Shown here: positions 1 to 33,750 of the stretch, in pieces
Position numbering within the stretch: the stretch's first letter is position 1
Layout: each line of letters starts with the position of its first letter
Source of the DNA: Onthophagus taurus
Lineage: Eukaryota > Arthropoda > Insecta > Coleoptera > Scarabaeidae
Length of the DNA stretch: 64,000 bases
Assembly (NCBI RefSeq): GCF_036711975.1
Contig: NC_091967.1
Location: forward strand, 16,678,001 to 16,742,000
Direction of reading: 5' to 3'
Notes under the pieces: generated by a model
Told to the model about the DNA's origin: nothing
Seen by the model: the letters and a program-made list of their open reading frames with translations, nothing else
Database searches by the model: none
Position numbers and translations under genes: made by a program

Positions 1-847
1 ATCAAAAGAATTTAAATGTTCCGTCTGCAATCAAGGTTTTGAACAAAGAGCAAAATTAAAAAATCACATGCGTAAACATAAACCAAAAAATCGATGTTGT
101 GACGTATGTGGAAGTAAGTTTAAAACCAATCAGGAATTAAACAAGCATCAACGAACCCATAATTCACAAAAAAACATCCCATGTACACTTTGTGAAGCAA
201 CATTTATAACGGAGGTTGGCATGAAACAACATATAACAAGCGTTCATCTTAAAGCGTATCCCTTTAAATGCGATCAATGCGATAAGGGTTATTTATTCGA
301 ATATATTTTGAACAACCATAAAAAATCGGCTCATTTAGGAACGGTTTATAAGTGTGAGAAATGCAATAAAAATTATAAATGCAGGGTTGCGTTTAAACAT
401 CATTTAAAAACGCACGAAGTGGGGTACAAAAAACCGGAATACTCCTGTTCGATATGTTCAAAATTGCTGTCTTCAAAGAGATGTTTAGAATCACATCTTC
501 GTACTCACGAAGATTCAACAAGATATGTATGCAAGTTTTGTGGGAAAGCATTAGGTTCTCGGCATTACTTACAAATCCATGAACGCACACACAAAGGAGA
601 CAAACCTTTTGTGTGTCAATATTGCCCTAAAGCTTTCGTTTCAAGTTGTTTGCTTAAAATGCACGAACGCATTCACACCAATGAAAGGCCGTATGTTTGT
701 AAAGTCTGTAATAAAGCATTTAATCAACTTGCACCGCTTACAATTCATACCAGAATTCATACAGGTGAGCGACCGTATGGTTGTCATCTTTGTGATCAAC
801 GATTTTCTTCAAGAACTAATTTAAATTTGCATCTAAAAAAGCATTAA
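1..847 (+). CDS. C2H2 zinc-finger terminal exon, 5' end outside window
   Basis: The reading frame is open from base 2 to the TAA at 845-847 and encodes about ten C2H2 fingers, the last ones joined by TGEKP-type linkers (TNERP, TGERP). It is probably a nuclear DNA-binding transcription factor; that role is inferred from the family. The first in-window methionine (68) lies inside finger 1 and is not the true start: the paralogous exon at 5545 shows the frame running up to a splice acceptor. The two proteins are very similar throughout, so this is a recent duplicate pair. AATAAA signals follow at about 890. The acceptor and any upstream exon lie beyond the window. Confidence 0.85.
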   Translation, partial: SKEFKCSVCNQGFEQRAKLKNHMRKHKPKNRCCDVCGSKFKTNQELNKHQRTHNSQKNIPCTLCEATFITEVGMKQHITSVHLKAYPFKCDQCDKGYLFEYILNNHKKSAHLGTVYKCEKCNKNYKCRVAFKHHLKTHEVGYKKPEYSCSICSKLLSSKRCLESHLRTHEDSTRYVCKFCGKALGSRHYLQIHERTHKGDKPFVCQYCPKAFVSSCLLKMHERIHTNERPYVCKVCNKAFNQLAPLTIHTRIHTGERPYGCHLCDQRFSSRTNLNLHLKKH

Positions 848-1545
848 TTTAATTTTAGTTATGAATTCAGTATTTCTTTAATGACAATTAATAAATAAAA
901 ACGTAAGATCAATCCTTTGGGTATTTTTATTTTTAAGAATAATGTTAACAAGTAGTTTTTGTCCTAAGTAATTTGTTCTTTTTTTGTAGTTTAAATTCAA
1001 CATTGTAATATATGTTTGATTTATAAATAAAATCAGCTCCAGCTATATACAGGAAGATTCAAAAAACCGCTGACAGACTTCTAGAGCAGGTAATACATCA
1101 AAAATTAAAATGAAAAGAATTAATATATATGGGGTCGCAAATACATCCTTAACGAGATATAGGAGGTCAAAGTTTCTTTAAAATTAAAATTTATCTGCGA
1201 TAAAAAGCCCTTTTTAAAAATATTTTCAACGCCACTGCTAATTTTGTTAAACGAGCAGTATTTTCGTGTAGTGATTAATTATCTATCAATTGGGCACTTA
1301 CAAAACTTTGATTAAAGCAACAGTTTTTGATTGGATTTACACATTTTCTACAAACATGTTTTTCTTAAAAACTATTTTAATTATGAACTCAGTATTTCTT
1401 TAATGATAATAAATAAAAACGTATTAATATTAACATGTGATTTTTGTCATAAGTAATTTGTTATTTTTTTTTATGGTTTTAGTTCAACATTATATATGTT
1501 TAATTTATAAATAAAATCAGCCCCAGCTATACAGGGTGATTCACA
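848..1545 (+). repeat. Duplicated 3' flank of the zinc-finger exon
   Basis: About 180-200 bp of 3' untranslated/flanking sequence (roughly 860-1060) recurs in diverged form at about 1375-1545; the block from the 'cagtatttctttaatga' stretch to the 'aaaatcag' stretch is recognisable in both. A further copy follows the paralogous exon at 6407. The piece between (about 1046-1310) starts with a motif like the terminus of the foldback element at 1530 and may be a decayed relative of it. No coding potential seen. Confidence 0.55.
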
Positions 1546-2580
1546 TAAGAACCGACACAGAGCAGGGACATGTAGAGGACAATAAATTAAGATGATTTAA
1601 CGCAACTTATTTCTATACTAAGTAGTACCCCCGAGGAATTATAGGCGTTCAAAGTTAGGTCTTAAATTTTTAAAGCATTGAATATCTTCGTAATACATTA
1701 AGGAAAAACCAAATTCGGTATACGTTATGAGTGTACCGAAGGTATTAATTGGTAGCAAATTGAGACCAATTGAGGCATTTCAAAGGGTTGATTAAGGGTG
1801 ATGGTCCCCTCAATGTTGACAGATTTTTTTAACCTTTTGGTGGATTTAATACAGTATTACCTCATTTCGTGTGGAATTTAATTCTAAAACTTTTTTTACT
1901 CTTATTATTTTTTAAAAAACATTGTCGTTTTCATAAAAACGCATATAACTAAAGACACGTGTTTCGTTAATGCTACTTAAAATCATCGAAAATTCAGTAG
2001 TCGGCTATGAAATTGTACGTCAAACTTGACAAATAGGTTATAAAACCTTGTTGTCAAATGATTTTATAACCTATTTGTCAAGTTTGACGTACAATTTCAT
2101 AGCCGACTACTGCATTTTCACTTATTTTAAGTAACATTACGAAATAAGTGTCTTTAGTTATTTAAGTTTTTTATGAAAACGACAAAGTTTTTTAAAAAAT
2201 AATAAGAGTAAGAAAAGTTTTAGAATTAAATTCCACATGAAATGAAGTAGTAATGTATTAAATCGGTCAAAAGGTTAAATAGATCTGTCAAAATTTAGAG
2301 TACCATCACCCTTAATCAACCCTTTGAAATGCCTCAATTGAGTTCAATTTGATACCAATTAATACCTTTGGTACACTCATAACGTATACCAAATTTGGTT
2401 ATTCTAGCTTAATTTATTACGAAGATATTGAACTTTTTAAAAATTTAAGAGCCAACTTTGAAGGCCTATAACTCCTCAGGTATACAACTTAGTATAGAGG
2501 TAAGTTACTTTAAATCATCTTAATTTATTGTCTTCTACATGTCCCTGCTCTGTGTCGGTTCTTATGTGAATCACCCTGTA
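1530..2580. mobile_element. Foldback MITE, about 1.05 kb, TA target site
   Basis: The left arm (1532 to about 2045) and right arm (about 2063-2578) are long inverted repeats of each other, meeting at a short loop near 2050. The termini read CAGGGTGATTC... and ...GAATCACCCTG, each flanked by TA (1530-1531 and 2579-2580). A TA duplication with CAGGGTG termini points to mobilisation by a Tc1/mariner-type transposase. There is no transposase gene inside, so it is non-autonomous. Confidence 0.85.
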
Positions 2581-3039: not shown

Positions 3040-5415
3040 TTCTGTGGAAGAGGAAATTCGAAGGCATTCGAAGAAATTAATTCCGCCACACGAAGATTCT
3101 GCAGAATCGTTGAAAACTAAGGAAGCTCATATAAATGCGAAAAAGCTTACAGATATAAAGCCTGAGCACGTTTGTATAATATGAATTGATATATATCGAT
3201 CGATAAAACGTTATATGTGTGAAATTTGTGGAAAAGAAGTTACATCGCTAGAATCATTGAAAATTTAAACGTGGTCATAGAGGAGAGAAACCTTTCGCTT
3301 GTAAACATTGTTCAAAGAAATTCATATCAAACGGCTTACTGCAACCTCACGAACATATTCATTCCACTCTCCTTTGAAAAGGCAAAGGGTTTTCCCACTT
3401 GGTTTTCATATAATACCATTAGAGTAATTCAAAAGAAAAGGAGGGCGCACTGTAAATGAAAGCGTTTTGGCAACCGACTTGACTACCTTACTTTTTCAAT
3501 TCTAAGGAGTCGTGTAAAGTTTCTAATCCATCACAATTACATGGAGTATGTTAGAAGAACTGAAAGCAATTTCCAATCTGACCCAAAGGCGTTTTGTGCT
3601 TTTACTAAGTCTAAGAAGCGATGATCCTTCTACGATGTCATGGAATGGAACTGTTGTCAGCGACGGTGTCTGAGTATGCTCATTGTTCGCTGATTTCGTT
3701 TCTTCTGTTTTTGATGATCCTGCTCCAATCCAGCAGAATGTAGATTGTGTAGAAATGGATGCCCTTCCTTTTAGTCAGATGTAGTTTGACAGAATTGAGG
3801 TTGAGAAGGCCCTGATGGTATTCCATCAATTTTAATCAAGGAATGTTCACACTCTCTGTCCCTTCCTTTAACTATTTTATTTAATGCTTCATTAATAATG
3901 GGTGTCTTTCCTTCATTGTGGATGCGGGCTGTTGTTCTTCCCATTTTTAAATCAGGGGACCGTGGTGTTATATCTGATTACCACCCCATATCTGTTTTGC
4001 CAGCATTTGGGAAAGTGTTTGAGAAAGTAGTTTATGCACGTCTATTCTTTGCCTTTAAGTCTAAAATCAATTGTAGATCACATGGTTTTTTGTTGGTCGC
4101 TCGGTTGAGAGTAACTTGCTTGAATATACCCAGTACATCTTATCTTCTCTGGATGATTCTTGTCAAGTTGATTCAGTTTATACGAATTTTAGTAAAGCTT
4201 TCGACCGGGTGGATCACAACTTACTTCTGTTTAAGCTAATGAAGTTTGGTGTTGGCTTGCTTCCTATCTGAAGGACAGATGCCAGATTGTTTCGGTTAAT
4301 GGTTTTTTTTCTAATCTTGTGTCGGTTCGTTCTGGTGCTCCACGGAGTAGCCATCTGGGCCCTTTACTGTTTACTATTTATGTTAACGACATATTTGACG
4401 TCGTTAATTATGCCCAATATTTAATGTATGCTGACGATTTAAAACTCTTTCTCCGTATCTCCTCACCTCGTGATTGTTCTAGACTGCAATCTGACTTAAA
4501 CAATCTACATGCTTTTTGCTTAAATAATAGCCTTTCATTAAACTTATCAAAGTGTAATATTATTTTCTTTTCTAGGAGGGTGAACACAATCCACTACAAT
4601 TATAGCGTCGCTGGTGAGAGGTTGCAACGTGTCTCATTTATTAGAGATTTGGGTGTTACATTTGATTATAAATTATTATTTGATAAACATATTAATACTG
4701 TTGTCTCCAAAGCCTGGCGTATGTTAGGATTTATTATGAGATCTACGGTAGCTTTTTGTAACATTGATGCAATTAGAAATCTCTATTTTTAAATTTTCCA
4801 TTCAATACATTGATTACGAATCAACTTGCACTTCTTTTCGTATATTAACCCTCAACAAGCGTCGCTTTTGTGGGGGTATGTTATATTTTTACAAACTTTT
4901 GAACAACAAGCTTTTCGCTTTGACTTTCTATTTATGACACCTACTCCTAGAACCAATGCCTGTCAAAACTCTCCTTTATTGAGAATGGCAAAATCAGCAA
5001 ATCGTGTTAACATAGATCTGCTTCAGCATTCTTTCTATGCATTTAAAAAACTGCTCTTTGCTGCAGTTGGTGTGTTGCCTCTAGCGTTCATTTGATATTT
5101 GATTTATGATATATTTATATCATCTAGGCTTAGTTTTAGTTTTTTCCTTTTGATTCACTTTTGTACCATTAATATTAATTCATTATTATTGTTGTGAATT
5201 GTAATTTTATTTGTATACAATTGGTTGTTTGTGGTACAGTGTTATTGGATTCGACCTGTTTCTGTACCCACATGAGATAAATAAATAAATAAAATAAATA
5301 AATACCAATGAAAAGCCTTACGTTTGCCAAACTTGTTAAAGCATTTAATCAGTATGAGTCATATAAAATTCATACAGGTAAAAGGCCGTATGGTTGTCAT
5401 CTAAAAAAACATTAA
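3040..5415 (+). pseudogene. Zinc-finger exon split by a retrotransposon
   Basis: The 5' part (about 3040-3366) gives an acidic/basic leader, then CEICGKEVTSLESLK, a stop and shifts, then GEKPFACKHCSKKF and LLQPHEHIHS. The 3' part (about 5307-5415) resumes with NEKPYVCQTC and ends in remnants of the GERPYGCH finger and the terminal KKH plus stop seen in its neighbours at 1-847 and 5545. The join falls in the linker after the finger's last histidine: the intact paralogue reads HERIHTNERPYVC at the same place. A non-LTR element fills the gap. Several stops and deletions make this a dead copy. Confidence 0.75.
3367..5306 (+). mobile_element. 5'-truncated non-LTR retrotransposon (Jockey-like)
   Basis: Broken frames encode a reverse transcriptase. 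The order is a WF(S)..IR..KK linker region near 3390-3450, PIFKSGDRGVISDYHPISVLP (two frames), a KAFDRVDHN-like block at about 4195-4215, SGAPRSSHLGPLLFTIYVNDI at about 4330-4395, and the catalytic YADDLKLF at about 4427-4450. The 3' end is an (AAATA)-type tail at 5277-5306. The 5' endonuclease region is missing, as is usual for target-primed insertions that stop early. Stops and frameshifts show it is inactive. The boundaries are inferred from the interrupted zinc-finger exon. Confidence 0.8.
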
Positions 5416-5544: not shown

Positions 5545-6406
5545 GAATCTTTTATCATCATCAAAAGAATTTAAATGTTCCGTCTGCAATCAAGGTTTTG
5601 AACAAAAAGCAAAATTAAAAGATCACATGCGTATACATAAACCAAAAAATCGATGTTGTGACATATGTGGAAGTAAGTTTAAAACCAATTATGAATTAAA
5701 CAACCATCAACGAAGCCATAATTCACAAAAAAACATCCAATGTACACTTTGCGAAGCAAAATTTTCATCGGAGATTGGCAAGAAACAACATATAACAAGG
5801 GCTCATCTTAAAACGTATCCCTTTAAATGCGATCAATGCGATAAGGGTTATTTATTCGAATCTGTTTTGAACAACCATAAAAAATCGGTTCATTTAGGAA
5901 TGGTGCATAAGTGTGATAAATGCAATAAAAATTATAAATGCGGGTTTGCGTTTAAACAGCATTTAAAATCGCACGAAGTGGGGTACAAAAAACCGGAATA
6001 CTCCTGTTCGATATGTTCAAAATTGTTGTCTTCAAAGAGAAGTTTAGAATCACATCTTCGTACTCACGAAGATTCATCAAGATATGTGTGCAAGTTTTGT
6101 GGGAAAGCATTAGGTTCTCGACATTATTTACAAATCCATGAACGCGCACACAAAGGAGAGAAACCTTTTGTATGTCAATATTGCCCTAAAACTTTCGTGT
6201 CAAATTATTTGCTTAAAATGCACGAACGCATTCACACCAAAGAAAGGCCGTATGTTTGTAAAATATGTAATAAAGCATTTAATCGACATGCGTCGCTTAC
6301 AATTCATACTAGAATTCATACAGGTGAACGACCGTTTGGTTGTCATCTTTGTGATCAACGATTTTCTTCAAGAACTAATTTAAAGGTGCATCTAAAAAAG
6401 CATTAA
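5545..6406 (+). CDS. C2H2 zinc-finger terminal exon, ten fingers
   Basis: The exon starts after the acceptor ending TTTTTAG at 5544. Base G5545 completes an upstream codon and the frame is open from 5546 (N-L-L-S-S-S-K-E-F...) to the stop at 6404-6406. It contains about ten C2H2 fingers, the last three with TGEKP-class linkers, followed by a short LKKH end. It is a close paralogue of the exon at 1-847; most changes are single residues, some in finger helices (for example SSC to SNY, QLAP to RHAS), so the DNA preference of individual fingers may differ. The upstream coding exon is not identified. A predicted start at 5627 would cut finger 1 and is rejected. Confidence 0.85.
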
Positions 6407-7489: not shown

Positions 7490-8504
7490 GAAATCAAAGA
7501 AAATTGGTAAAAGGTGTATACTTACACGAAAAAGAAAGGATAATAATAATACTTCACACGATGATGCAACAATTCGATTAAACGAGCTTATCATAAAAGA
7601 TGAGCCATACGATGTAAATTCCGATGGAGAAATTAACCAAGTTGAAAACACCAAGAAAGAAAGTGAAGAGAAAACATCGGAAGCGATACTTTGCGAAGTT
7701 TGTGATCAAACATTTACCAACAATATCGAATTCTGCTTACACACGATTACTCATAGTGAAGATGGTAAATATCATTGTTATCTATGTAATTATAGAAGTG
7801 CTTCGAAATATAGTATCGAATCACATATCAGAACTCACGATGGCACTGCTAAGTACAAATGTGAAATATGTAATAAAGGTTTTGGAATAAGGACACATGC
7901 TTCACAACATAAATATTTTCATAGCGGAGAAAAACCGTTTCAATGTGAAATATGCGGAAAACATTTTATGTTTTCCTGGTTCTTAGCATCTCATCGAAGA
8001 TCTCAACATTGGGAAATACTAACCGGAAAGCCATTAGTCAAGTACGATTGTCGAATTTGTAAAAAACATTATACATCATCAACTGGATTAAAACGCCACC
8101 AAGCTAGCATCCATAATATGGGGAAACGTGAAGCATCGCGCTTGTGCGATATTTGCGGTAAAAGTTTGTCTAGTAAAGAAAAATTGAAATTTCATAGAAG
8201 AATTCATACCGGATACAAACCATACGCTTGTACGGTGTGTTCAAAAGCATTTACAAAAAAAGAACAATTAAAAGAACACGAAAGAGTGCACACCGGTGAA
8301 AAACCGTATATTTGCAACTTTTGCGGAAAAGGATTTAGTCAAAGAAGTCCTTTAAGAATACACGAACGTATACATACCGGTGAACGTCCATATAGTTGCA
8401 AAATATGTTTTAGGGGATTTGTTTCTAAAGGAGTCATGGACATACACATGAAATCTTGTCAAGGACAGACTCGACAAAGTTCTCGCAACACAAATAAAAT
8501 ATAA
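7490..8504 (+). CDS. C2H2 zinc-finger terminal exon with acidic leader
   Basis: The acceptor TTTTGTAG ends at 7489; G7490 completes a codon and the frame is open from 7491 to the stop at 8502-8504 (337 residues). Residues 1-65 are a charged leader containing IIKDEPYDV, where IKDE fits the SUMO-acceptor consensus psi-K-x-E. About nine fingers follow from CEVCDQTF, the later ones with TGEKP/TGERP linkers, and the last is a CCHC variant (CKICFRGF...HMKSC). A start at 7968 would remove the leader and about four fingers. The first fingers are less canonical ([10 protein letters not shown]). Probably a nuclear DNA-binding regulator. The upstream exon is unknown. AATAAA follows at about 8635. Confidence 0.85.
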
Positions 8505-10611: not shown

Positions 10612-10710
10612 GAATTCGTCACTTCGAACTTGTTTCTAAAGAAGGTTGCAACATGGTATCCGACACGTCAAATATGTTTTCAAAAAACGTACGGCTTAAC
10701 CCGAAAGTTT
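10612..10710 (+). repeat. Right inverted arm of the Penelope-like element
   Basis: Partner of the left arm. It lies within the 3' end of the reverse-transcriptase frame, which reads through it and ends at 10793. Confidence 0.75.
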
Positions 10711-12247: not shown

Positions 12248-12956
12248 GTTAAGCTGGGCTTACACAGATCCACTCGAAGTTAAATACATATGTGAGGGAG
12301 GAATTAAATTGGAGTACGATGAGAAAGAATATGATGAAAAAGAGGTTGATGCAAAAGAGTATAATGTTACAATTGAAAATAAATTCATAGTAAATGAAAC
12401 ATTAATTAAACCACCTTTACAAACAAGTAGTATTCTTAGAACACTTCTTAGTGGTAGAAGTTCTCAACAAGTGAAAGTCGAATGTCCAGAACAACAAGAA
12501 ACTAGTTCTTCAGTTATTTGCGTAGTTTGTAAGAAATCTTTTACGGATCCTTGGGCTTTAAGAACACATCAGCGTCGCTCGCATAAAGTTACAACAGATG
12601 GTAAAGAAAAGAAAAATAGAACTTATTTATGTGAAGTGTGTGGGAAAGCATGTACGGGAAAATTAACACTTGATGATCATTACAATTTTGTTCACACTGG
12701 TACAAGACCTTACACGTGTCCTCATTGTCCAAAAAGTTTTGCAACGCATAAATATTTGGTAATTCATCAACGAATTCATTCGGGGGAGAAACCTTATGCT
12801 TGCAAACATTGCGGGAAAAGTTTCACCCAACGATGTACGTTAAAAATACATGTTCGTGGACATACCGGTGAACGACCATATGTATGTCATAAATGCAAAA
12901 ATTCTTTTGCATCTAGAACGGTGTTGAACAAACATTTAAAAATTTGTGCAGTATAG
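12248..12956 (+). CDS. C2H2 zinc-finger terminal exon, five fingers, LxxLL leader
   Basis: Acceptor CATTTTAG ends at 12247; G12248 completes a codon and the frame is open from 12249 to the stop at 12954-12956 (235 residues). The leader has an acidic repeat (EYDEKEYDEKEVDAKEY), two SUMO-consensus sites (IKLE, VKVE) and the block LQTSSILRTLLS, which contains LRTLL (an LxxLL motif) and recurs in the exon at 28722. Five fingers follow: CVVCKKSF, CEVCGKAC, CPHCPKSF, CKHCGKSF, CHKCKNSF, the last ending H...C. The final four use TG/SGEKP-type linkers. Probably a sequence-specific regulator. A poly(A) signal lies at about 12979. Confidence 0.85.
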
Positions 12957-13655: not shown

Positions 13656-14539
13656 GTACTCTTCAGACCAAAGGCTTGTAACAATATATAAAAGAAAAAA
13701 TTCATTTGTGAGTCATAAATATGTATGCTCAGTTCGAAATAAGTCAACCAAAGTCTTGTACGATCTATAGTCAACAAAAATTATCAATCTAGATGTCCAC
13801 CAGATCCACTTAACAAGATCATCTATAAAATGAGTTGTATTCGTTGTAGGTGACCATATAAATCAAAGTCATCTTTCTTAAGACCTTTTAATAAATGTCA
13901 ACGTACAGCAGTTCATGTGAGGTGTGTCAAAAATTGTTTAAAAGCGTACACACATAATAATAAATATAGCTGATAGTAAGCTAGATACTGCTAATAGAAG
14001 ACTGGGTCTGCTTAGAATTGATGAAGTACTGCTTGCATAAGATTGTACACTGCTAGTAGATGACTAAATGTTGCTTGCAGAAGACTACTTCCTGCTTCCA
14101 GAAGGCTAAATACTGCTAGCAGGAGCAGAATACTGTTAATAGAACTCTGGGTCTGCTTGCTGATGATTAATTCCTGCTCTAAGAAGGCTAAATACTGCTA
14201 GCAGAAGCAGAATACTGTTAATAGAACTCTGGGTGTGCTTGAAGATGATTACTTACTGCTCTCAGAAGGCTAAATACTCCTGACAGAAACAGAATGCAGC
14301 TAATAGAATGTATGGGTGAGAGATCATTTAGTTGTAAAATATGTAAGAAGTCATTTAGAACGAAGACCATTTTAAAGGAGCACATGAGAATCCATACTAA
14401 CAGCAAACCATTTGTTTGCAATATATGTCAAAAAAGTTTTGCCCAAAGACGTGGTTTACATATACATATTAGAATACATACTAACTCTACATTAAGAAAG
14501 CATTGTAAAATACATATCATATCTTTAAGTAATATTTGA
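13656..14539 (+). pseudogene. Zinc-finger exon with internal fingers replaced by minisatellite
   Basis: It begins after AATTATAG (ends 13655) with the same phase and the same Y-S-S-D-Q leader as the functional exons at 14668 and 16950, but hits a stop within about 45 codons. Traces of the leader, MSCIRC and CEVCQKLFK (about 13918-13950) are followed by an 82-bp tandem repeat. The frame resumes at about 14309 with two good fingers (CKICKKSF, CNICQKSF) and ends in a truncated third and the terminal SLSNI. Compared with 14668, fingers three to about seven are missing. A non-functional copy, unless the 3' part is used on its own. Confidence 0.75.
13970..14305. repeat. 82-bp minisatellite, about four units
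   Basis: The core CTAAATACTGCT...CAGAAT...CTGTTAATAGAA recurs at 14106, 14188 and 14270, an exact 82-bp spacing, with more diverged units before. The same family occurs at 16340-16690 and inside the duplicated units at 22660 and 25449. Confidence 0.85.
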
Positions 14540-14667: not shown

Positions 14668-15664
14668 GTACTTCCCAGAGCAAAAGTTTGAACCGAGGAC
14701 TTGTATGGGCTGTAACAAAACATATACTACAACAGATTCTTCATTTGTAGCCCATAAATGTAACTGCACAGCCGATCCGCTCACTCTCAAGGTCGTCGAA
14801 GAAATGTGTTGTAACCGTTGTGAAAGAAGTTACGAAACGAGAGAATCATTTATTAAACATATTCAAAAGTGTAAACGAAATAATGCGCAATGTGAGGTGT
14901 GTCAAAAAATATTTAAAACTGTGGCTGAAAAAAAAATGCACATAAAATTGGTTCATAAAAATGGCGAAAACTATTTATGCGATATATGCGACGAAACTTT
15001 TCAATATAAATCAACATTTATCAACCACACAAAGCGACATTTAAACCAACGCGACTTTACGTGCGATGAGTGCGGTGAGAAATTTCTCGTGAAGCGTACC
15101 TTTGATTATCACGTTTTGTCAAAACATAAAGGTGTTAGATATGCTTGTAAAGATTGCGGACAAGTATTCGCTAGTAAACGGTATCTTAAAATACATTCTG
15201 TCAAACATAGCGATGGTTATGAACAACAATACTTCTCATGTTCTGAATGTAACAAGAAGTTTACGCTAAAAAGGACTTTAAACCAACATATTAGACGTTG
15301 CCATTATGGCAAAACCTTAAATATCTGTGAAGTATGCGGTAAAGGTCTGAGATCCAAGTCAACTTTACGAAGTCATATGAGGATTCACACTGGGGAAAAA
15401 CCATTCGAGTGTGAAGTGTGCAAGAAACCATTTAATACCAGACAGTTATTAAGGGTCCATATGAGAATACATACTAACAACAAACCGTTTACTTGTAACA
15501 TTTGTGGAAAGGCATTTACACAAAGAACTACTTTAGTTGTTCATATCAGAACTCATACTGGAGAGAAACCTTATCCTTGCGTAGTTTGTAATAAAAGATT
15601 TTATACTAGTTCTTCACTAAAAGTTCATTCGAAAAGTCATGGTTTACCTTTAAGCAATATTTAA
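14668..15664 (+). CDS. C2H2 zinc-finger terminal exon, about ten fingers
   Basis: Acceptor TAATTATAG ends at 14667; G14668 completes a codon and the frame is open from 14669 to the stop at 15662-15664 (331 residues). The leader YFPEQKFEPRTCMGCNKTY contains a degenerate finger, followed by CNRCERSY, CEVCQKIF, CDICDETF, CDECGEKF, CKDCGQVF, CSECNKKF, CEVCGKGL, CEVCKKPF, CNICGKAF and CVVCNKRF. The end HSKSHGLPLSNI is shared with the exons at 16950, 20986, 31649 and 32811. Same subfamily as 16950 but clearly diverged. Poly(A) signal AATAAA at about 15689. The methionine at 14705 is internal to the first degenerate finger. Confidence 0.87.
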
Positions 15665-16949: not shown

Positions 16950-17952
16950 GTCCTCTCCAGATCAAAAATTTCAACCAAGGACTTGTACCAGTTGTAATAG
17001 ATCGTATACAACGCAATCATCATTTAAAACCCACAAATACAGATGTCCAGCTAACCCACTTATTACAAAGGTTACGGAAAAAATGAGTTGTATCCGTTGT
17101 GGGAAAACGTTCCTAAAAAAAGCAGCTTTTTCAAAACATTTTAGAAGATGTCAAAGAGGTAGAACGATACCATGTGATGTATGTCAAAAACTATTTAAAA
17201 CTGTTGCCGAAAGAAACACACATAAAAAAAGGGTCCACGATGCAGAAAATTGCCAAAAATATCCGTGCGACATTTGCGACCAAACGTTTCGAGATAAGCC
17301 AACACTTACGCACCATAAAAAACGTCATTTGAATCAATATGATTTTACATGTGATGAATGTGGGGAGCAATTTGTCGTGAAGAGCTCGTTTGAGTATCAT
17401 ATTTTATCAAAACATAAAGGTGTCAGACATGCTTGTAAAGATTGTGGAAAAATATTCACTACTGAATGGTATCTTAGAGAGCATTCTGTCAAACATAACG
17501 ATGATTACGAGCAACAATATTTTTCATGTTCTGAATGTGAAAAAAAGTTTATGGTGAAAAGTAGTTTAAACCAACATATTAAACGTGTCCATTGTGGCAA
17601 AGGTTTAAGCATATGTGAAATATGCGGTAAAGCTGTGACATCAAAGACAAGCTTACGCGATCATATAATGATTCACACTGGTGAAAAACCATTCAAGTGT
17701 GAAGTGTGCAAGAAACCATTTAAAACGAAGAACTTATTAAAGATCCACGTGAGAACCCATACTAATAGTAAACCGTTTGTTTGCAACATATGTGAAAAGG
17801 CATTTACACAAAGAACATCTTTAGTTGTTCATATCAGGCAACATACTGGAGAGAAACCTTATCCTTGCGTAGTTTGTAATAGAAGATTTTATACTAGTTC
17901 TTCATTAAAAGTTCATTCGAAAAGTCATGGTGTACCTTTAAGTGATATTTAA
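16950..17952 (+). CDS. C2H2 zinc-finger terminal exon, parent of tandem copies
   Basis: Acceptor TAATTATAG ends at 16949; the frame runs from 16951 to the stop at 17950-17952 (333 residues). The leader SSPDQKFQPRTCTSCNRSY holds a degenerate finger; then CIRCGKTF (ending in a Cys ligand), CDVCQKLF, CDICDQTF, CDECGEQF, CKDCGKIF, CSECEKKF, CEICGKAV, CEVCKKPF, CNICEKAF, CVVCNRRF and the tail HSKSHGVPLSDI. The methionine at 17083 is not a start: both nearly identical copies (23078, 25867) have Lys there while the rest of the frame is kept. Poly(A) signal at about 17973. Confidence 0.88.
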
Positions 17953-20985: not shown

Positions 20986-21892
20986 GACAAATTTAAAACA
21001 AAAAGAAGATGTGGTTAAAAATACAAGTTGTAACCGTTGTAATAAAAGTTATTCTACACGAAGAGCCTACACGAAACATCGACACAGATGTAATAAAATT
21101 AAAAGTATACCCTGTAATATATGCGAAAAATTATTTAAAACGTTTCAAGAAAGAAATCGCCATGTGAAAGCATTACACAATGAAAATAGAAACGTTTATG
21201 CATGCGATATTTGCGACGAGTTCTTTTTAACTACATCAGCATTAGAACGTCATGAAAACAAACATCTCAACAAACACAAATTTCAATGCGATGAATGCGG
21301 TAAAAAATTTCACATAAAATCAAGTTTAAATCATCACATCGCTTTACAACACAAAGGTGTTAGATATACTTGCGAAGAGTGCGGAAAATCGTTTGCTAGC
21401 GAACCTTATTTTCGCAAACATTGCGTTACACACAAAGAAGATTATGTACCACCTAACTTTCATTGTTTGGAGTGCGGTAAAATTTATAACAGAAAAAGTT
21501 CTCTTGCCATGCACATACAAATACATAGGGATCCTAGCAAAAAATTTTTCGTTTGCGAAGTTTGTGGTAAATCCGTCGCTTCGAAAACTAGTTTAAAACA
21601 ACACGTTATGTTACATACAGGAGAAAAACCATTTAAGTGCGATGTGTGTGGAAAATCGTTTAATAAACAAACAATTTGTAAAAGTCATATGAGAACGCAC
21701 ACAAAGAGTAAACCATTTATTTGTAATATATGTGGTAAAGGATTTTCTCAAAGAACGCCTTTAACTGTTCATTTAAGGTATCATTCGGGCGAGAAACCGT
21801 TTACTTGTTTAGTTTGTCAGAAAACATTTTATACAAGAACGTTATTAAAAACTCATTCTAAAATACATGGTATACCGTTAAGTTGTTTTTAA
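20986..21892 (+). CDS. C2H2 zinc-finger terminal exon, about ten fingers
   Basis: Acceptor TTTTGTAG ends at 20985; G20986 completes a codon and the frame runs from 20987 to the stop at 21890-21892 (301 residues). Order: short leader TNLKQKEDVVKNTS, CNRCNKSY (C-terminal ligand Cys), CNICEKLF, CDICDEFF, CDECGKKF, CEECGKSF, CLECGKIY, CEVCGKSV, CDVCGKSF, CNICGKGF, CLVCQKTF, tail HSKIHGIPLSCF. It is in the same subfamily as 14668 and 16950 but lacks their first degenerate finger. Its last 13 codons are included in the duplicated segment C at 21854. Poly(A) signal AATAAA at about 21899. Confidence 0.87.
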
Positions 21893-23077: not shown

Positions 23078-24080
23078 GTCCTCTCCAGATCAAAAATTTC
23101 AACCAAGGACTTGTACCAGTTGTAATAGATCGTATACAACGCAATCATCATTTAAAACCCACAAATACAGATGTCCAGCTAACCCACTTATTACAAAGGT
23201 TACAGAAAAAAAGAGTTGTATCCGTTGTGGGAAAACGTTCCTAAAAAAAGCAGCTTTTTTAAAACATTTTAGAAGATGTCAAAGAGGTAGAACGATACCA
23301 TGTGATGTATGTCAAAAACTATTTAAAACTGTTACCGAAAGAAACAAACATAAAAAAAGGGTCCACGATGCAGAAAATTGCCAAAAATATCCGTGCGACA
23401 TTTGCGACCAAACGTTTCGAGATAAGCCAACACTTACGCGCCATAAAAAACGTCATTTGAATCAATATGATTTTACATGTGATGAATGTGGGGAGCAATT
23501 TGTCGTGAAGAGCTCGTTTGAGTATCATATTTTATCAAAACATAAAGGTGTCAGACATGCTTGTAAAGATTGTGGAAAAATATTCACTACTGAATGGTAT
23601 CTTAGAGAGCATTCTGTCAAACATAACGATGATTACGAGCAACAATATTTTTCATGTTCTGAATGTGAAAAAAAGTTTATGGTGAAAAGTAGTTTAAACC
23701 AACATATTAAACGTGTCCATTGTGGCAAAGGTTTAAGCATATGTGAAATATGCGGTAAAGCTGTGACATCAAAGACAAGCTTACGCGATCATATAATGAT
23801 TCACACTGGTGAAAAACCATTCAAGTGTGAAGTGTGCAAGAAACCATTTAAAACGAAGAACTTATTAAAGATCCACGTGAGAACCCATACTAATAGTAAA
23901 CCGTTTGTTTGCAACATATGTGAAAAGGCATTTACACAAAGAACATCTTTAGTTGTTCATATCAGGCAACATACTGGAGAGAAACCTTATCCTTGTGTAG
24001 TTTGTAATAGAAGATTTTATACTAGTTCTTCATTAAAAGTTCATTCGAAAAGTCATGGTGTACCTTTAAGTGATATTTAA
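23078..24080 (+). CDS. Duplicate C2H2 zinc-finger terminal exon (copy A')
   Basis: Nearly identical to the exon at 16950: same acceptor, same phase, frame from 23079 to the stop at 24078-24080, exactly the same length (333 residues plus stop). Differences include Met to Lys at the position of 17083, Ala to Thr in KTVAERN and His to Arg before the finger-4 helix end. All zinc ligands are kept. Likely to have the same DNA preference as the parent. Starting it at an internal codon (23457) would remove three to four good fingers. Confidence 0.87.
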
Positions 24081-25866
24081 AGTATTGTAACATTGATGTG
24101 AACAATAAAATATTTTCAATATAAATTGTGTTGTGTAATTTATACTAGGTCAACTGATAAATAAGATACTGACTATATTCGTTAACAACTATTAAAATAT
24201 AACGAAGGTCTTTAATGATGTAAACATTCAATCACAAGGTAATGTTATAAATTTGCTTTAAGATATGTTGAAACGTAAATCACTTCTGATATATTTTAGG
24301 TGGAAATTATGCAGAAACATCCGCAAATAGGAAAGGTTCGTTTTCTCTCTAAGTCCAAACATTATCGCAGAATTCTGCTGGTACCATTGCGTACTAAAGT
24401 TGATTTGGAGGAAGACTTGAAAGAAACTTTAAAGACAAAAAAATCACACCAAAAAGAGGAAGACTTGATAGAGACTGGTTATAGAAGAAAAAAATTGAGA
24501 AAGAAGAGGGCTGGGCAGACAAGAAGGAATGTGAAAAGACACTGTAAGAGCAAAAAAGGAACTAGATAGCGAAGAGGAAGAATGGAAAGGGTCGTTAAAG
24601 GCAAGAAAATAACTGAACAAGATTTAAAAAAAAAACACTGAACATTCTAAAATACATGGTATACCGTTAAGTTGTTTTTAAAGATATCAATAAAATTTTA
24701 AAATGATTATTTGTTTTTTCTTTATTATGTAGATTTAAATTTGATTTCATATTATAGTAATATTACACCATTAAATGTTGTCTGAAGATCTTTGGCCACG
24801 TACGAAGTTTAAATATTTTCTTATTTCTTACCAAAATTTTTGGCTTCTTGTATAGTTTTTCCTTTTTTTGTGATTATCTTGTTTATTGCTGTATCCCCAG
24901 TCTTACGGTCTCCTATCTTTCCACTTCACAGCTTTCTTGCCAACATAATGGGGTCATCTCTTCAGTATTCTGATTTATCTGTAGATGTCTCCACAAACTG
25001 AGCTGCCACTTCTCTATAAAATCATCCAGAGCCTCAATATTTAAATTTTTCGTTATGCCAAGTTATAAACCTTACTTAGTTAATTACAAATAAGCATTTT
25101 GAATTGTTGCTTACTAAATATCTGGCTCCAAATTGGCGATTTCTTCTTCAAGCTCAGCTTACAAAACTTGCAAGGTTTGCAAATCTGGGTTATTAGATCT
25201 GACGATATGGTCGGCCAAACATCAAAAACAAGCAATATTCCTCAACGATTTTTCTTCATGTATCTGAGACTATTAATAAAATATGGCGAAAAGGGTTACT
25301 CCATAAGCTAAATAAAACGCTACCAGCTCAATATGTCCAAGTCTTTTCCAAGACGATTTTTTAGAGTGCAAACAGGAAACAAAATATTCAAATTTTAAAG
25401 ACACCAGACTTGCTCCTTATGGTTATTTACTAATCATATCGATTCCTGCAAGATACTGTTAATAGAATTCTAGATCTGCTTCCCGAAGATTACATATTGC
25501 TTCCAGAGGGCTAAATACTACTGGCGGAAGCAAGATACTATTAATAGAATTGTAGATTTGCTTGCAGAACACTACTTATCGCTTCCAGAATATCAAGAAT
25601 ATACAAATGTTATTATTATTATATCCCACTAAGTATTAAGTTGGTGTTCAAATAAAATTGTTATAAATTATTTTGTTTATAAAAACTGGTGTGATTAGTA
25701 TAATTGATTGTAAACCTTCAATTACCAAATAACGTTAGAACATATTTTAAGATATACCAGAACATACATATAAATAACTTCTGATATATTTGAGATGGGA
25801 TCACTGGTACCGATTCCTATCAGTTGATTATTGACCTTGTTTAAACTCAATTTATTATAATTATAG

Positions 25867-26869
25867 GTCCTCTCCAGATCAAAAATTTCAACCAAGGACT
25901 TGTACCAGTTGTAATAGATCGTATACAACGCAATCATCATTTAAAACCCACAAATACAGATGTCCAGCTAACCCACTTATTACAAAGGTTACAGAAAAAA
26001 AGAGTTGTATCCGTTGTGGGAAAACGTTCCTAAAAAAAGCAGCTTTTTTAAAACATTTTAGAAGATGTCAAAGAGGTAGAACGATACCATGTGATGTATG
26101 TCAAAAACTATTTAAAACTGTTACCGAAAGAAACAAACATAAAAAAAGGGTCCACGATGCAGAAAATTGCCAAAAATATCCGTGCGACATTTGCGACCAA
26201 ACGTTTCGAAATAAGCCAACACTTACGCACCATAAAAAACGTCATTTGAATCAATATGATTTTACATGTGATGAATGTGGGAAGCAATTTGTCGTGAAGA
26301 GCTCGTTTGAGTATCATATTTTATCAAAACATAAAGGTGTCAGACATGCTTGTAAGGATTGTGGAAAAATATTCACTACTGAACGGTATCTTAGAGAGCA
26401 TTCTGTCAAACATAACGATGATTACGAGCAACAATATTTTTCATGTTCTGAATGTGAAAAAAAGTTTATGGTGAAAAGTAGTTTAAACCAACATATTAAA
26501 CGTTTCCATTGCGGCAAAGGTTTAAGCATATGTGAAATATGCGGTAAAGCTGTGACATCAAAGACAAGCTTACGCGATCATATAATGATTCACACTGGTG
26601 AAAAACCATTCAAGTGTGAAGTGTGCAAGAAACCATTTAAAACGAAGAACTTATTAAAGATCCACGTGAGAACCCATACTAATAGTAAACCGTTTGTTTG
26701 CAACATATGTGAAAAGGCATTTACACAAAGAACATCTTTAGTTGTTCATATCAGGCAACATACTGGAGAGAAACCTTATCCTTGTGTAGTTTGTAATAGA
26801 AGATTTTATACTAGTTCTTCATTAAAAGTTCATTCGAAAAGTCATGGTGTACCTTTAAGTGATATTTAA
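25867..26869 (+). CDS. Duplicate C2H2 zinc-finger terminal exon (copy A'')
   Basis: Third copy of the 16950 exon: acceptor AATTATAG ends 25866, frame 25868 to the stop at 26867-26869, length identical to the other two. It shares the internal Lys with A' and differs by a few substitutions (for example EQF to KQF, EWYL to ERYL, RVHC to RFHC). The uninterrupted frame in all three copies means they are either very recent or still under constraint. Confidence 0.87.
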
Positions 26870-28238
26870 AGTATTGTAACACTGATGTGAACAATAAAAT
26901 ATTTTCAATATAAATTGTGTTGTGTAATTTATACTAGGTCAACTGATAAATAAGATACTGACTATATTCGTAAACAACTATTAAAATATAACGAAGGTCT
27001 TTAATGATGTAAAGATTCAATCACAAGGTAATGTTATAAATTTGCTTTAAGATATGTTGAAACGTAAATCACTTCCGATATATTTTAGGTGGAAATTATG
27101 CAGAAACATCCGCAAATAGGAAAGGTTCGTTTTCTCTCTAAGTCCAAACATTATCGCAGAATTCTGCTGGTACCATTACGTACTAAAGTTGATTTGGAGG
27201 AAGACTTGAAAGAAACTTTAAAGACAAAAAAAATCACACCAAAAAGAGGAAGACTTGAAAGAGACTGGTTATAGAAGAAAAAAATTGAGAAAGAAGAGGG
27301 CTGGGCAGACAAGAAGGAGTGTGAAAAGACACTGTAAGAGCAAGAAAGGAACTAGATAGCGAAGAGGAAGAATGGAAAGGGTCGTTAAAGGCAAGAAAAT
27401 AACTGAACAAGATTTAAAAAAAAAACATTGAACATTCTAAAATACATGGTATACCGTTAAGTTGTTTTTAAAGATATCAATAAAATTTTAAAATGATTAT
27501 TTGTTTTTTCTTTATTATGTAGATTTAAATTTGATTTCATATTATAGTAATATTACACCATTAAATGTTGTCTGAAGATCTTTGGCCACGTACGAAGTTT
27601 GAATATTTTCTTATTTCTTACCAAAATTTTTGGCTTCTTGTATAGTTTTTCCTTTTTTTGTGATTATCTTGTTTATTGCTGTATCCCCAGTCTTACGGTC
27701 TCCTATCTTTCCACTTCACAGCTTTCTTGCCAACATAATGGGGTCATCTCTTCAGTATTCTGATTTATCTGTAGATGTCCCCACAAACTGAGCTGCCACT
27801 TTTCTATAAAATCATCCAGAGCCTCAATATTTAAATTTTTCTTTATGCCAAGTTATGAACCTTACTTAGTTAATTACAAATAAGTATTTTGAATTGTTAC
27901 TTGCTAAATATCTGGCTCCAAATTGGCGATTTCTTCTTCAAGCTCAGCTTACAAAACTTGCAAGGTTTGCAAATCTGGGTCATTAGATCTGACGATATGG
28001 TCGGCCAAACATCAAATACAAGCAATACTCCTCAACGATTTTTCTTCATGTATCTGAGACTATTGATAAGATATGACGAAAAGGGTTACTCCATAAGCTA
28101 AATAAAACGCTACCAGCTCAATATGTCCAAGTCTTTTCCAAGACCTTTTTTTAGAGTGCAAACAGGAAACAAAATATTCAAATTTTAAAGACATCAGACT
28201 TGCTCTTTATGGTTATTTACTAATCATATCGATTCCTG

Positions 28239-28721: not shown

Positions 28722-29157
28722 GTTGACCTTGGAAAATGTAGAACCATTGATGGACGTTGACCGTGGAAACAAAGAAATCATATATGATAAACAAAACTGG
28801 GTGGAAGACATAAAGATTCATTTTAATTTCGAAGAAGAATTTGATGAAACCACGATTTCAATTGAAAATAATTCCCTTGTGGAGGAACCATCCGATCAAC
28901 CAGCTTTACAAAAAAATAGTATTCTAAGGACACTTCTTACTAGTGCTACTTTTCATCAAAACTATATTTCTAACGCTGATTCGAATTTGATGAGTGGATT
29001 GTGTCAATGTGCCGACAAAAATAATCATAAATGTTTAAATATTTTTGATATTACTACAAACGGCCTTTGTCAGCAATTAAATAATAATTTCATTTCTAAT
29101 TCCTCAGATGTTGTCGAAATAATTGATAGCGATGACGATATTTTCATTGTAAACTAA
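28722..29157 (+). CDS. Fingerless terminal exon with LxxLL block and SIM-like tail
   Basis: Acceptor CATTTTAG ends at 28721; G28722 completes a codon, same phase as the finger exons, and the frame runs from 28723 (L-T-L-E-N-V-E-P...) to the stop at 29155-29157, 144 residues. There is no C2H2 finger. The leader is acidic; LQKNSILRTLLTS at about residues 66-78 matches LQTSSILRTLLSG of the exon at 12248 and contains LRTLL (LxxLL). The C-terminus DVVEIIDSDDDIFIVN has the hydrophobic-then-acidic pattern of a SUMO-interaction motif. AATAAA overlaps the stop region. It could be a genuine finger-free isoform or an exon that lost its fingers. Confidence 0.65.
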
Positions 29158-29289: not shown

Positions 29290-29660
29290 GTATTTGCCAA
29301 AAATGAAAAATAAAACACTCCAAGATACAGGACCAACCCTAACAGTCATAAAAATTGAAAGTAATATAGAGAAAATAAGTAAAGTTTGGCTTGACTTACC
29401 ATATATCAGTAGTCCATAAAGGTATTAAATATCAATGCAAAGAATGCGGAAAACTTTTTACAGCAGAACACTACTTGAAAAAACACATAACGACGATTAT
29501 GTACAGAAACACTTTTCATGTTCAGTGTGAGTACAATATTCTGGTGATAAGCCTTTTCTCTGTGATATTTGTAACAAACGATTTTACACTAGAACGGTAC
29601 TAAAGAAGCATTCTAAAACTCATGGTGTTTCATTAAGTTCTGTATTGTGTAATATTTAAT
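29290..29660 (+). pseudogene. Degenerate zinc-finger terminal exon
   Basis: It follows ATTACAATTATAG (ends 29289) in the usual phase: Y-L-P-K-M-K-N..., with VIKIES as a SUMO-type site, then a stop after about 39 codons. Shifted remnants of fingers follow: CKECGKLFTAEHYLKKH, then a jump to CDICNKRFYTRTVLKKHSKTHGVSLSS (about 29558-29645, with a frame change). Middle fingers are deleted. It belongs to the 31649/32811 subfamily by sequence. Confidence 0.7.
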
Positions 29661-29815: not shown

Positions 29816-29912
29816 TCAAGATTTCTAACGCATTTTCCGATTAATTCCACCGTTTCATAAATTAAAAAGTGGTTGCATTTATTATTTCTATTAATCCCTC
29901 TATAGCTTTCAA

Positions 29913-30330
29913 GAAGTCAAATGTCAAAATTAAATATAACGTTTTTTTGATAAATATTGAAATGATCTTAATAAGAATAAAAAATGCTATAATTTGATAC
30001 CAAACATGATATATTTGGGTTAAAAAATAAAAAGTTAGGTTAGAAACTGTCAAATGTCAAAATTAAATATAATGATTTTTTGATAAATATTGAAATGATC
30101 TTAATAAGAATCAAAAATGCTTTCATTTGATACCAAGCATGATATATTTGGGTTAAAAAATAAAAAAGTTAGGTTAGAAACTGTCAAATGTCAAAATTAA
30201 ATATAATGATTTTTTGATAAATATTTAAATGATATTAATAAGAATCAAAAATGCTTTCATTTGAAACCAAACATGATATATTTAGGTTAAAAAATAAAAA
30301 AATTTAGGTTAGTAACTGTCAAATGTCAAA
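29913..30330. repeat. 134-bp tandem repeat, three units
   Basis: The start CTGTCAAATGTCAAAATTAAA recurs at about 29913, 30047, 30181 and 30316, spacing 134-135 bp. Units include TTGATACCAAACATGATATA and end in a GTTAGGTTAG block. No coding sense. Confidence 0.8.
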
Positions 30331-31089
30331 TAATCGCCATTTTTTTTTTTTTGCTAAAAATGAAGATATTTCGATAACGGTTGGAGATAAGTAAGCCGAG
30401 TTTGGGTTCATTTTAAAGGATTTTTAATTTTCTATCCATTAATGTTAAAAAAGAATAGCTTTATAACTAAAAAAAATTTCTTATTCAAAAATTCATGGTA
30501 TTCAGTTCTATGTATGTATGTATAATACATAATAAAATATTTCTAAATAAAAATGTTGAAATCGTATTTTTTGTAAAATTCTTAACAATTGTTAAAGCTA
30601 TGTAATTACGTATAGTTCGTTTTTTTTTCTATAATACTTGTCAATTTAAATTTTTTAGGGTTTCTGTTGGTATTATCTAGGACTCTTATAAAATTTATGT
30701 TCTTTTCCTGATTTTTAGTAACATTTTCAGTAACTAAATAGTTGAGGTTAAAATACTAATAAATTTTTAGATAAATACGATTTTAACGAAGTACATATTT
30801 GTTGTAAAAACGTGCTACAAAGTAATTAAATAGAACAAAACACCTTTTCTAGGTAAATAAATGGCAAATAAGCACCCCACAACATTTTTTATGCACCTTT
30901 TCTTTTTGAATAACGAAAGCTCAAACGTCAGTGTGACATATTTATTTCAAAACATGATAAAACAAAACACTCTGTTAATTTTGCCAACTTTACAACAATT
31001 TGGCAGGTATTATGGAAAAAAAATGAACTATATTCATATCTTAGTTATCATTAAAACAAAAAAAATAGCTAATGTTGCTAACTATACCG
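30331..31089. other. Spacer, nothing recognised
   Basis: AT-rich DNA after the 134-bp repeat. The open frame at 30861-31142 partly overlaps the dispersed repeat at 31090 and shows no known domain. Confidence 0.35.
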
Positions 31090-31600: not shown

Positions 31601-31648
31601 GCAATTATTTCTTTAAAATACTTAATTTGCTTTTCATTACAATTATAG

Positions 31649-32582
31649 GTCTTCATCATCTAAAGAGGATCAAACATGCCAAGAAGAAATCGGATGTATT
31701 GAAACAATGAGTTGTATTAAATGTAAAAATACGTTTGATACAAAATCATCATTTTCGAAACATTTTCCGAAATGTACAGGATCAAGACTGATACCTTGCG
31801 AGATATGTCAAAAGAAGTTTGAAAGTAATACAGAAAAAATGTACCATGTAAAGAGAGCGCACGATCCATCTCGGATTACTTTTGCATGTACGATTTGCGA
31901 TAAAACATTTATGACTCAAATAGGAGTTAAACGTCACGAGGGTACACATGTAAACCAATTCAAGTATGGCTGCACAGAGTGCGATAAAAAATATAATCTT
32001 AAGACTAGCTTGGATCATCATGTAGCAGTTGAGCATAAAGGTATTAGGTATCAATGTAAGGAATGCGGAAAATCGTTTACAGATAAAAGGTATATGAAGG
32101 AACATTCTTTTACACACAAAGAAGATTATGTTCCGAAAAGATTTACATGTACAGTATGTGACAAAAAAATGACGTCCAAACACTATTTTTTACGTCACGT
32201 GGCATGCCACAGTAATCCTAACGTAACATCAGTCGTTTGTGAAGTGTGCGGTAAAACTGTGACATCAAAATCAAGCTTAAGAGATCACATGATGATTCAC
32301 ACGGGCGAAAAACCATTTGAGTGTAAAGTATGTGGGAAAATGTTTAATAAAGCCCGCTTATTAAAAATTCACATAAGAATTCATACCAAGGAAAAGCCAC
32401 ACGTTTGTGATATCTGCGGCAAAGCATTTTCTCAAAGATCAACGTTAGTTATTCACAATCGACTACATTCTGGCGAAAAACCTTTTGTTTGCGTAATATG
32501 TAATAAACGATTTTACACGAAATCAATATTAAAAACTCATTCGAAGTCTCATGGTGAACCGTTGAGTTCTACAAAATTATAA
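31649..32582 (+). CDS. C2H2 zinc-finger terminal exon
   Basis: Acceptor ATTACAATTATAG ends at 31648; frame from 31650 (S-S-S-S-K-E-D-Q...) to the stop at 32580-32582, 310 residues. Fingers: CIKCKNTF (Cys-ended), CEICQKKF, CTICDKTF, CTECDKKY, CKECGKSF, CTVCDKKM, CEVCGKTV, CKVCGKMF, CDICGKAF and CVICNKRF, then HSKSHGEPLSSTKL. The last four have TGEKP/TKEKP/SGEKP linkers. Close paralogue of 32811. The methionine at 31707 is not required as a start, since the equivalent position in 32811 is Ile. Confidence 0.87.
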
Positions 32583-32810
32583 AAAAAACCTAATAGGAAG
32601 AAAATGAATACTTTTTGAAGCAACTCTTTCACACATGAAGAAACGAAAATGTTTAAGTTTAAATAAACGAATTAGTAGTACTTTAACTGGTTTTATTATC
32701 GAAATTTTTTTTAAATCTGACTAGTTATGAATCGTTAAAACAAAAACAGTAAATTAATTTATTCAATTATTTATTTAAAATAGTTAATTTGCTTTTCATT
32801 ACAGTTATAG

Positions 32811-33750
32811 GTATTCATCATCTATAGAGGGTCAAACATGCAAAGAAGAAATGGAATGTATTGGAACAATAAGTTGTATTAAATGTAAAAGTACATTTGA
32901 TACAAAATCATCATTTTCGAAACATTTTCGGAAGTGTACAGGATCAAGATTGATACCTTGCGAGATATGTCAAAAGAAGTTTAAAAGTAATACAGAAAAA
33001 ATGTACCACGTAAACAGAGCGCACGATCCATCTAGGACTACTTTTGCGTGTACGATTTGCGATAAAACATTTGTGACTCAAATAGGATTTAAACATCACG
33101 TGTGTATCCTACATGTAACCCAATTCAAGTATGGCTGCACAGAGTGCGATAGAAAATATAATCTTAAGAGTAGCTTGGATCATCATGTATCAGTTGAGCA
33201 TAAAGGTATTAGGTATCAATGTAAGGAATGCGGAAAATCGTTTACAGATAAAAACTATTTGAAGAAACATGCTGTTACACATAAAGAAGATTATGTTCCG
33301 AACATTTTTAAATGTACAGTGTGTGACAAAAGTATGACGTCCAAACACTATTTTTTACGTCACGTGGCATCCCACAGTAATCCTAACGGAACATCAGTCG
33401 CTTGTGAAGTGTGTGGTAAAACTGTGGCAACAAAATCAAGCTTAAGAGATCACATGATGATTCACACGGGCGAAAAACCATTTAAGTGTAAAGTATGTGG
33501 GAAAATGTTTAATAAAACCCGCTTATTAAAAATTCATATAAGAATTCATACCAAGGAAAAACCATACGTTTGTGATATCTGCGGCAAAGCATTTTCTCAT
33601 AGACCAGCATTAAGTACTCATAATCGAGTACATACTGGTGAAAGACGTTTTGTTTGCGTAATATGTAATAAACGATTTACCACGAAATCAATATTAAAAG
33701 CTCATTCGAACCGGTCTCATGGTGAACCGTTGAGTTCTACAAAATTATAA
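32811..33750 (+). CDS. C2H2 zinc-finger terminal exon, paralogue of 31649
   Basis: Acceptor ATTACAGTTATAG ends at 32810; frame from 32812 (Y-S-S-S-I-E-G-Q...) to the stop at 33748-33750, 312 residues. Finger order is the same as in 31649, with high identity in the exon and also in the preceding intron border and the 3' flank (AATAGGAAGAAAATGAATAC), showing a tandem duplication of about 1.15 kb. Differences cluster in a few helices (IGFKHHVCILH against IGVKRHEGTH; HRPALSTHNRVH against QRSTLVIHNRLH). The extra Arg before the last His changes the final finger spacing (HSNRSH, H-x4-H). Last exon of the array seen here. Confidence 0.87.

Follow-up and report, generated by a model that had tools for sequence, protein, structure and literature searches.

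A candidate complex locus in Onthophagus taurus with one ZAD and about 25 alternative terminal exons, most of them zinc-finger exons

Introduction

Do the C2H2 zinc-finger exons that follow one another on a 64,000-nucleotide stretch of the Onthophagus taurus genome belong to separate genes, or are they alternative 3' ends of a single one? The stretch, referred to as the window, covers positions 16,678,001 to 16,742,000 of the forward strand of contig NC_091967.1 (assembly GCF_036711975.1). In a previous reading of its letters alone (the sequence-only reading), eleven finger or finger-like exons were described as phase-locked, and a complex locus of the lola/mod(mdg4) kind with a common 5' part was named as a possibility. 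Here, about 72 kb are interpreted as one complex locus in the style of lola and mod(mdg4), built on a ZAD; we put the probability of this interpretation at roughly 0.86. The proposed common 5' part is supported by ZAD and linker exons upstream of the array, by a phase-2 donor and by in-frame joins to 26 of 26 terminal exons. Further support comes from a relative on another contig, in which a related ZAD and linker are joined to fingers of the array.

Results

Array of terminal exons

The DNA examined comprised the window, 70 kb upstream and 20 kb downstream of it, in a genome of 290.8 Mb (33 contigs, numbered C1 to C33). Genome positions on contig C2, which carries the locus, equal 16678000 plus the coordinate used here; zero and negative values lie upstream of the window. 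Exons are named by their first coordinate, and splice sites are marked by a slash. Twenty-six terminal exons were recognised from -28898 to 33750 (Table 1), and every one is on the plus strand and has the same phase. Fifteen of them begin upstream of window base 1, the array thereby reaching back by about 29 kb, and the open reading frame (ORF) at window base 1 is the body of the exon with its acceptor at -14. All eleven starts listed in the sequence-only reading (5545 to 32811) were recovered as plus-strand AG/G acceptors at which one base completes a codon. Ten of these exons encode C2H2 fingers, and exon 28722 encodes none.

The first base is G in 25 of the 26 exons. Finger motifs are present in 24 exons and absent from two. 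The frame is unbroken from acceptor to stop in 25 exons, exon -28898 being frameshifted; 17 of these 25 encode 8-10 fingers, six encode 4-5 and two none. Fingers were counted by a strict motif pattern on both strands, and no further match to this pattern was found on either strand from 33750 to 84000. Fingerless exons were recognisable only by a long ORF, and short ones were possibly missed. In a profile search, Pfam zf-C2H2 was found in four of the five terminal exons submitted.

Close to the stop (from -12 to +120), 23 of 26 terminal exons have AATAAA, compared with 124 of 511 control windows. Acceptor scores of at least 3 were obtained for 24 of 26 terminal exons, compared with 125 of 610 other AG/G sites in the locus. 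Since the terminal exons are largely paralogous, their common phase is partly inherited and does not stand for 26 independent events.

Common 5' part

Common exons 1 and 2, which lie upstream of the array, were joined and matched the zf-AD domain (PF07776) with an expectation value (E) of 2.1e-15 and 57.1 bits (cut-off 28). Weak matches were obtained to two solved chains, 7pok_A (E 2e-4) and 7po9_A (E 6e-3), which we take to be fly ZADs. The ZAD is a pairing domain in its family. A zf-AD search of the whole genome listed 40 places, of which one, common exon 2, lies in the locus, in agreement with the earlier statement that no ZAD is present between the finger exons. The 26 terminal exons have a single ZAD between them, and the closest of these exons is 8.6 kb from common exon 2. 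BTB was rejected as the common domain, as none of the 82 places listed in a genome-wide BTB search lies in the locus; on C2, the closest such place is at 11.4 Mb. The sequence-only reading had suggested looking upstream for a BTB exon with a phase-matched donor, and both a pairing-domain exon and a matching donor were found there, the domain being a ZAD and not a BTB.

The linker exon encodes the peptide LEHESDDENVDDPEPNFVSVGTS...NAEM. A relaxed splice and phase scan from the ZAD to the first finger exon, which admitted exons able to follow a phase-0 or phase-2 donor and to leave in phase 2, gave 14 candidates, among which the linker exon ranked second. It was chosen because of its homology to the linker of a gene on contig C11 (see below) and not by its scan score; tblastn from that gene also led to it (E 9e-7 with the linker alone, 1e-5 with the whole N-terminal part). 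When exons 1, 2 and the linker exon were joined to each terminal exon, one frame with one stop resulted in 26 of 26 cases, including the frameshifted exon -28898, whose frame stops early. The donor leaves CC, so that any first base completes a proline codon and the A-starting exon -24671 also fits. An exon at -37488 had been tried as exon 3 with AAAAG/GTTTTT as phase-2 donor (score -3.3) and was dropped once the linker exon had been found; it may be an optional cassette or an alternative end.

Gaps between terminal exons

Gaps from each stop to the next acceptor exceed 1 kb in 16 of 25 cases. The remaining nine measure 95, 113, 126, 160, 188, 228, 271, 277 and 341 bp, and each of them holds AATAAA or ATTAAA. 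This leaves little room for private first exons. In six of the nine no ATG is followed by an in-frame phase-2 GT with an intron of at least 45 bp. Seventeen of the 24 finger exons have no in-frame ATG ahead of the first finger. The block duplicated between exons 31649 and 32811 begins 52 bp before the acceptor, and the copy thus carried little upstream DNA; other duplicated blocks reach further up, to 304 bp before exon -14 and 418 bp before exon 16950. Private first exons for every finger exon are made unlikely by the short gaps and by the 31649/32811 duplication.

Intronless relative on C11

Part of exon 5545, used as a query at the DNA level, led to an intronless open frame of 398 codons from Met on the minus strand of C11 (22256478-22257689), which encodes a ZAD, a linker and C2H2 fingers. 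It matched common exon 1 (tblastn E 3e-13) and common exon 2 (E 1e-24). All three introns of the locus, two in the common part and the long one to the terminal exon, are absent from it. A midpoint-rooted tree was calculated from the C11 fingers and 23 of 26 terminal exons (-28898, -23423 and 28722 left out), with the second half of the frameshifted exon taken as a piece; a long-branch warning concerned six rows outside the C11 group. The C11 fingers nest in the group of exons -1005, -14 and 5545 (support 100/99) as sister of -14 plus 5545 (97/92), which indicates that the C11 gene arose after the terminal exons had diversified.

The simplest reading is that the C11 gene is an old retrocopy of a spliced mRNA from the locus, and it looks like a fossil record of one splice. 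Synonymous divergence (dS) is about 1, so that a polyadenylation (poly(A)) tail and target-site repeats should have faded. Ratios of nonsynonymous to synonymous substitution (dN/dS) between the C11 gene and the locus were 0.28 for ZAD plus linker and 0.26 for the fingers of exon -14; the gene is possibly functional.

Evolution of the terminal exons

With exon 5545 as query, the matches listed at E of 1e-30 or below comprised 17 places in the locus, itself included, and one on C11 (136 of 497 first-look candidates were scored). Two older exon pairs gave dN/dS of 0.19 (with a near-saturated dS of 1.8) and 0.31, and a near-identical trio gave 0.48-0.60 on very few changes; in one further pair dS was saturated. 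Two recently duplicated pairs gave 0.95 and 0.86, and some copies may accordingly be decaying.

In four of five usable pairs, a larger fraction of the DNA-contact positions within the finger helix, as we assigned them here, had changed than of the other finger positions: 10/40 versus 22/172 (Fisher p 0.08), 14/40 versus 19/173 (0.0005), 21/40 versus 50/174 (0.005) and 27/40 versus 64/173 (0.0006). The fifth pair had no excess at contacts (11/44 versus 52/190, p 0.85); a sixth, with a broken exon, offered only four contact positions and was not counted. The concentration of changes at DNA contacts in three of the five pairs speaks for altered specificity more than for decay. Stretches of about 2 kb at 16532-18517, 22660-24645 and 25449-27435 are about 99% identical and lie partly within a 2.8-kb tandem duplication; either the array expanded very recently or the assembly duplicated this DNA.

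Other features of the locus and genome

Exon 28722 had no Pfam match at E 0.01. It matches the N-terminal part of exon 12248 (12303-12470; tblastn E 3e-5), with SILRTLL in common, and is possibly a finger exon stripped of its fingers. A motif [IV][IV]EI[LVI]DSD, which in our view resembles a SUMO-interacting motif, is common to exons -23423, -21679 and 28722. A further finger fragment of a broken exon lies near 3300. Reverse-transcriptase-like fragments were noted by eye on the plus strand inside the array (3805-4792 and 9828-10793), and local direct repeats of 80-91% identity at 29903-30377 and 35001-35852. Upstream of the ZAD, between about -44.7 and -39.6 kb, are ORFs that by eye resemble a glutaminyl-tRNA synthetase, a Rieske protein and a GPN-type GTPase.

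Contigs C32 and C33 carry a repeated open-frame-like unit, apparently satellite DNA; the part of C33 that was read has about 50% G+C. Telomere-like CCCAA (TTGGG) repeats were observed at the starts of contigs C1 and C2, one end of each. Repeat motifs of the TTGGG type are reported for some scarabaeoid beetles (PMC8233369) and also for a lacewing (PMC12564400).

Table 1. Exons and remnants assigned to the locus, in window coordinates (genome positions on C2 in brackets where given)
Feature	Position	Strand	Remarks
Common exon 1	-38157..-38011 (C2:16639843-16639989)	+	ATG, CRLC half of ZAD; donor ACG/GTAAGT
Common exon 2	-37841..-37545 (C2:16640159-16640455)	+	ICDGC half of ZAD; donor CAG/GTAAAA
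Possible cassette exon	-37488..-37351	+	open frame, acidic and KRRKR-rich peptide
Linker exon	-34395..-34259 (C2:16643605-16643741)	+	entered in phase 0; phase-2 donor ATGCC/GTGAGT
Terminal exon	-28898..-27885	+	broken by frameshift; 1 + 9 fingers in two frames
Terminal exon	-25852..-24949	+	10 fingers
Terminal exon	-24671..-23612	+	5 fingers; first base A
Terminal exon	-23423..-22844	+	no fingers
Terminal exon	-21679..-20725	+	4 fingers
Terminal exon	-20564..-19424	+	9 fingers
Terminal exon	-17004..-15711	+	10 fingers
Terminal exon	-15369..-14274	+	10 fingers
Terminal exon	-11700..-10662	+	10 fingers
Terminal exon	-10566..-9795	+	4 fingers
Terminal exon	-9523..-8698	+	4 fingers
Terminal exon	-6597..-5823	+	4 fingers
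Terminal exon	-5709..-4671	+	10 fingers
Terminal exon	-1005..-141	+	10 fingers
Terminal exon	-14..847	+	10 fingers; with 5545 sister of the C11 fingers
Terminal exon	5545..6406	+	10 fingers
Terminal exon	7490..8504	+	8 fingers (strict pattern)
Terminal exon	12248..12956	+	4 fingers; SILRTLL segment
Broken finger exon, remnant	14249..14536	+	2 fingers
Terminal exon	14668..15664	+	9 fingers
Terminal exon	16950..17952	+	9 fingers; near-identical to 23078 and 25867
Terminal exon	20986..21892	+	9 fingers
Terminal exon	23078..24080	+	9 fingers
Terminal exon	25867..26869	+	9 fingers
Terminal exon	28722..29157	+	no fingers; VVEIIDSDDD motif; N-terminal part homologous to 12248
Broken finger exon, remnants	about 29400..29623	+	finger fragments
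Terminal exon	31649..32582	+	9 fingers
Terminal exon	32811..33750	+	9 fingers; duplicate of 31649; last of array

Discussion

In the proposed mechanism, the ZAD pairing domain and an acidic linker are supplied by the three common exons, and splicing would connect the phase-2 donor of the linker exon with any one of about 25 alternative 3'-terminal exons. Each terminal exon has its own stop and nearly all have a close poly(A) signal, and the choice of terminal exon would be coupled to the choice of cleavage and poly(A) site. Each isoform would then carry its own DNA-binding array on the common pairing domain. We infer that most or all terminal exons become joined to the common exons in transcripts, mainly in cis, which is the simplest mode because all terminal exons lie downstream on the same strand. 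The common ZAD would let isoforms form mixed dimers.

Several points weigh against this interpretation. The analysis covered genomic sequence, and the matrices that served to score splice sites were hand-made. When the best acceptor per ORF was taken by score and phase was ignored, the claimed site was returned in 16 and phase 1 in 18 of 26 cases. A branch-point motif was not clearly enriched (4/26 versus 53/610), and a strict splice scan for the linking exon gave no candidate and missed the linker exon. Among the exons with an unbroken frame, some fall short of their relatives in length. The retrocopy call depends on the intronless state of the C11 gene. This gene is diverged just after the junction, has no counterparts of the first two fingers and of one middle finger, and attests at most one type of junction, not 25. 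The formal ATG..GT pairs and the high dN/dS of recent copies, which belong on the same side, are weighed below with the rival explanations.

The same anatomy would result if each terminal exon had a promoter of its own and its RNA were trans-spliced to a common transcript made separately, as in mod(mdg4), where a common part and phase-matched exons are likewise found. All isoforms of fly mod(mdg4) are said to arise in this way (PMC12692577), and the 16 gaps above 1 kb could hold promoters. Trans-splicing is not needed, however, where the common part is followed on the same strand by 26 of 26 exons; the mod(mdg4) exons are partly on the opposite strand (PMC12692577), and the nine gaps of 95-341 bp offer little room for promoters. 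We regard this explanation as unlikely, though it is the more credible of the rivals.

Less probable still is a plain tandem family in which each finger exon has a tiny first exon and promoter of its own, with no more than one or a few finger exons serving the ZAD gene. The sequence-only reading described such a tiny first exon in the neighbouring GMC genes (taken over unchecked), the larger gaps could hide a short ATG exon with a phase-2 donor, and a formal ATG..GT pair is present in three of the nine short gaps (before exons -23423, -14 and 32811). Against this stand the other six short gaps without such a pair, the 31649/32811 block with its start only 52 bp before the acceptor, and the C11 gene, which unites a ZAD of the same type with fingers of the array. 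A tandem cluster on C6, moreover, has a ZAD piece in frame with or just upstream of six of eight finger ORFs. It is similarly improbable that only one or two terminal exons are in use, all others being idle duplicates heading for decay. One exon, the nearest to the ZAD, is frameshifted, others are mere remnants, and the two recent pairs gave dN/dS of 0.86 and 0.95. Yet 25 of 26 frames are open from acceptor to stop, the two older pairs gave 0.19 (at near-saturated dS) and 0.31, and changes concentrate at DNA-contacting residues in three of five pairs (p 0.0005, 0.005 and 0.0006).

If the array is one complex locus, the finger family would here grow by the addition of terminal exons to one gene, and all members would depend on the same ZAD, the same promoter region and a single splicing decision. 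ZAD-ZNF genes usually grow by whole-gene duplication. It would have to be asked how one donor picks among about 25 acceptors over 63 kb, and whether the common pairing domain yields mixed dimers. We give about even odds to the full combination, namely that a lola-like locus arose independently on a ZAD, that it encodes about 25 proteins, most with long differing arrays on one pairing domain, which form mixed dimers, and that new specificities arise by copying little more than a unit of acceptor, exon and poly(A) signal, under selection on DNA-contacting residues and with a tolerant CC donor.

Comparison with known systems

Like members of the ZAD-ZNF family, the locus combines an N-terminal zf-AD with C-terminal C2H2 fingers (in 24 of 26 terminal exons). 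In the usual form, however, each ZAD has its own finger array, whereas here one ZAD serves 26. Among 24 other ZAD loci listed, 11 were examined; eight of these have at least two fingers within about 3.2 kb, and three do not. The tandem ZAD-finger cluster at C6:5741346-5784825 likewise arose by tandem duplication of ZAD-family finger genes. It contains a ZAD piece in the same frame in five of eight finger ORFs and a zf-AD match just upstream of one; the ORFs without ZAD are 5755832 and 5775093, the latter abutting an ORF at 5775400. A ZAD piece at six of eight finger ORFs thus contrasts with one ZAD for 26 terminal exons. The cucoid gene also encodes a ZAD followed by C2H2 fingers, but its isoforms truncate a single five-finger array rather than exchange it for a different one. 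Among the papers listed by the literature search, most subscription journals being outside its scope, none described a ZAD locus whose terminal finger exons are alternatives.

With lola of Drosophila the locus has in common an N-terminal pairing domain that is combined with many alternative C-terminal parts. The pairing domain is a BTB in lola and a ZAD in O. taurus. Alternative exons of lola carry one or two fingers, whereas 17 of the 25 unbroken terminal exons of the ZAD locus encode 8-10. Different C2H2 fingers are present in 17 of 20 lola isoforms, according to PMC11426971.

Drosophila mod(mdg4) resembles the ZAD locus in its common exons with alternative 3' exons. In PMC12692577, over 30 isoforms of this kind are described, their alternative exons having independent promoters, lying partly on the other strand and being trans-spliced. 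The isoforms mostly contain FLYWCH (PMC11426971), in contrast to the long C2H2 arrays of the ZAD locus, and exons occur there on both strands, in contrast to 26 of 26 on the plus strand here. By analogy, the ZAD locus would work like lola and mod(mdg4) and is a member of neither, the ZAD replacing the BTB. If confirmed, it would make lola and mod(mdg4) examples of a design reached more than once in evolution.

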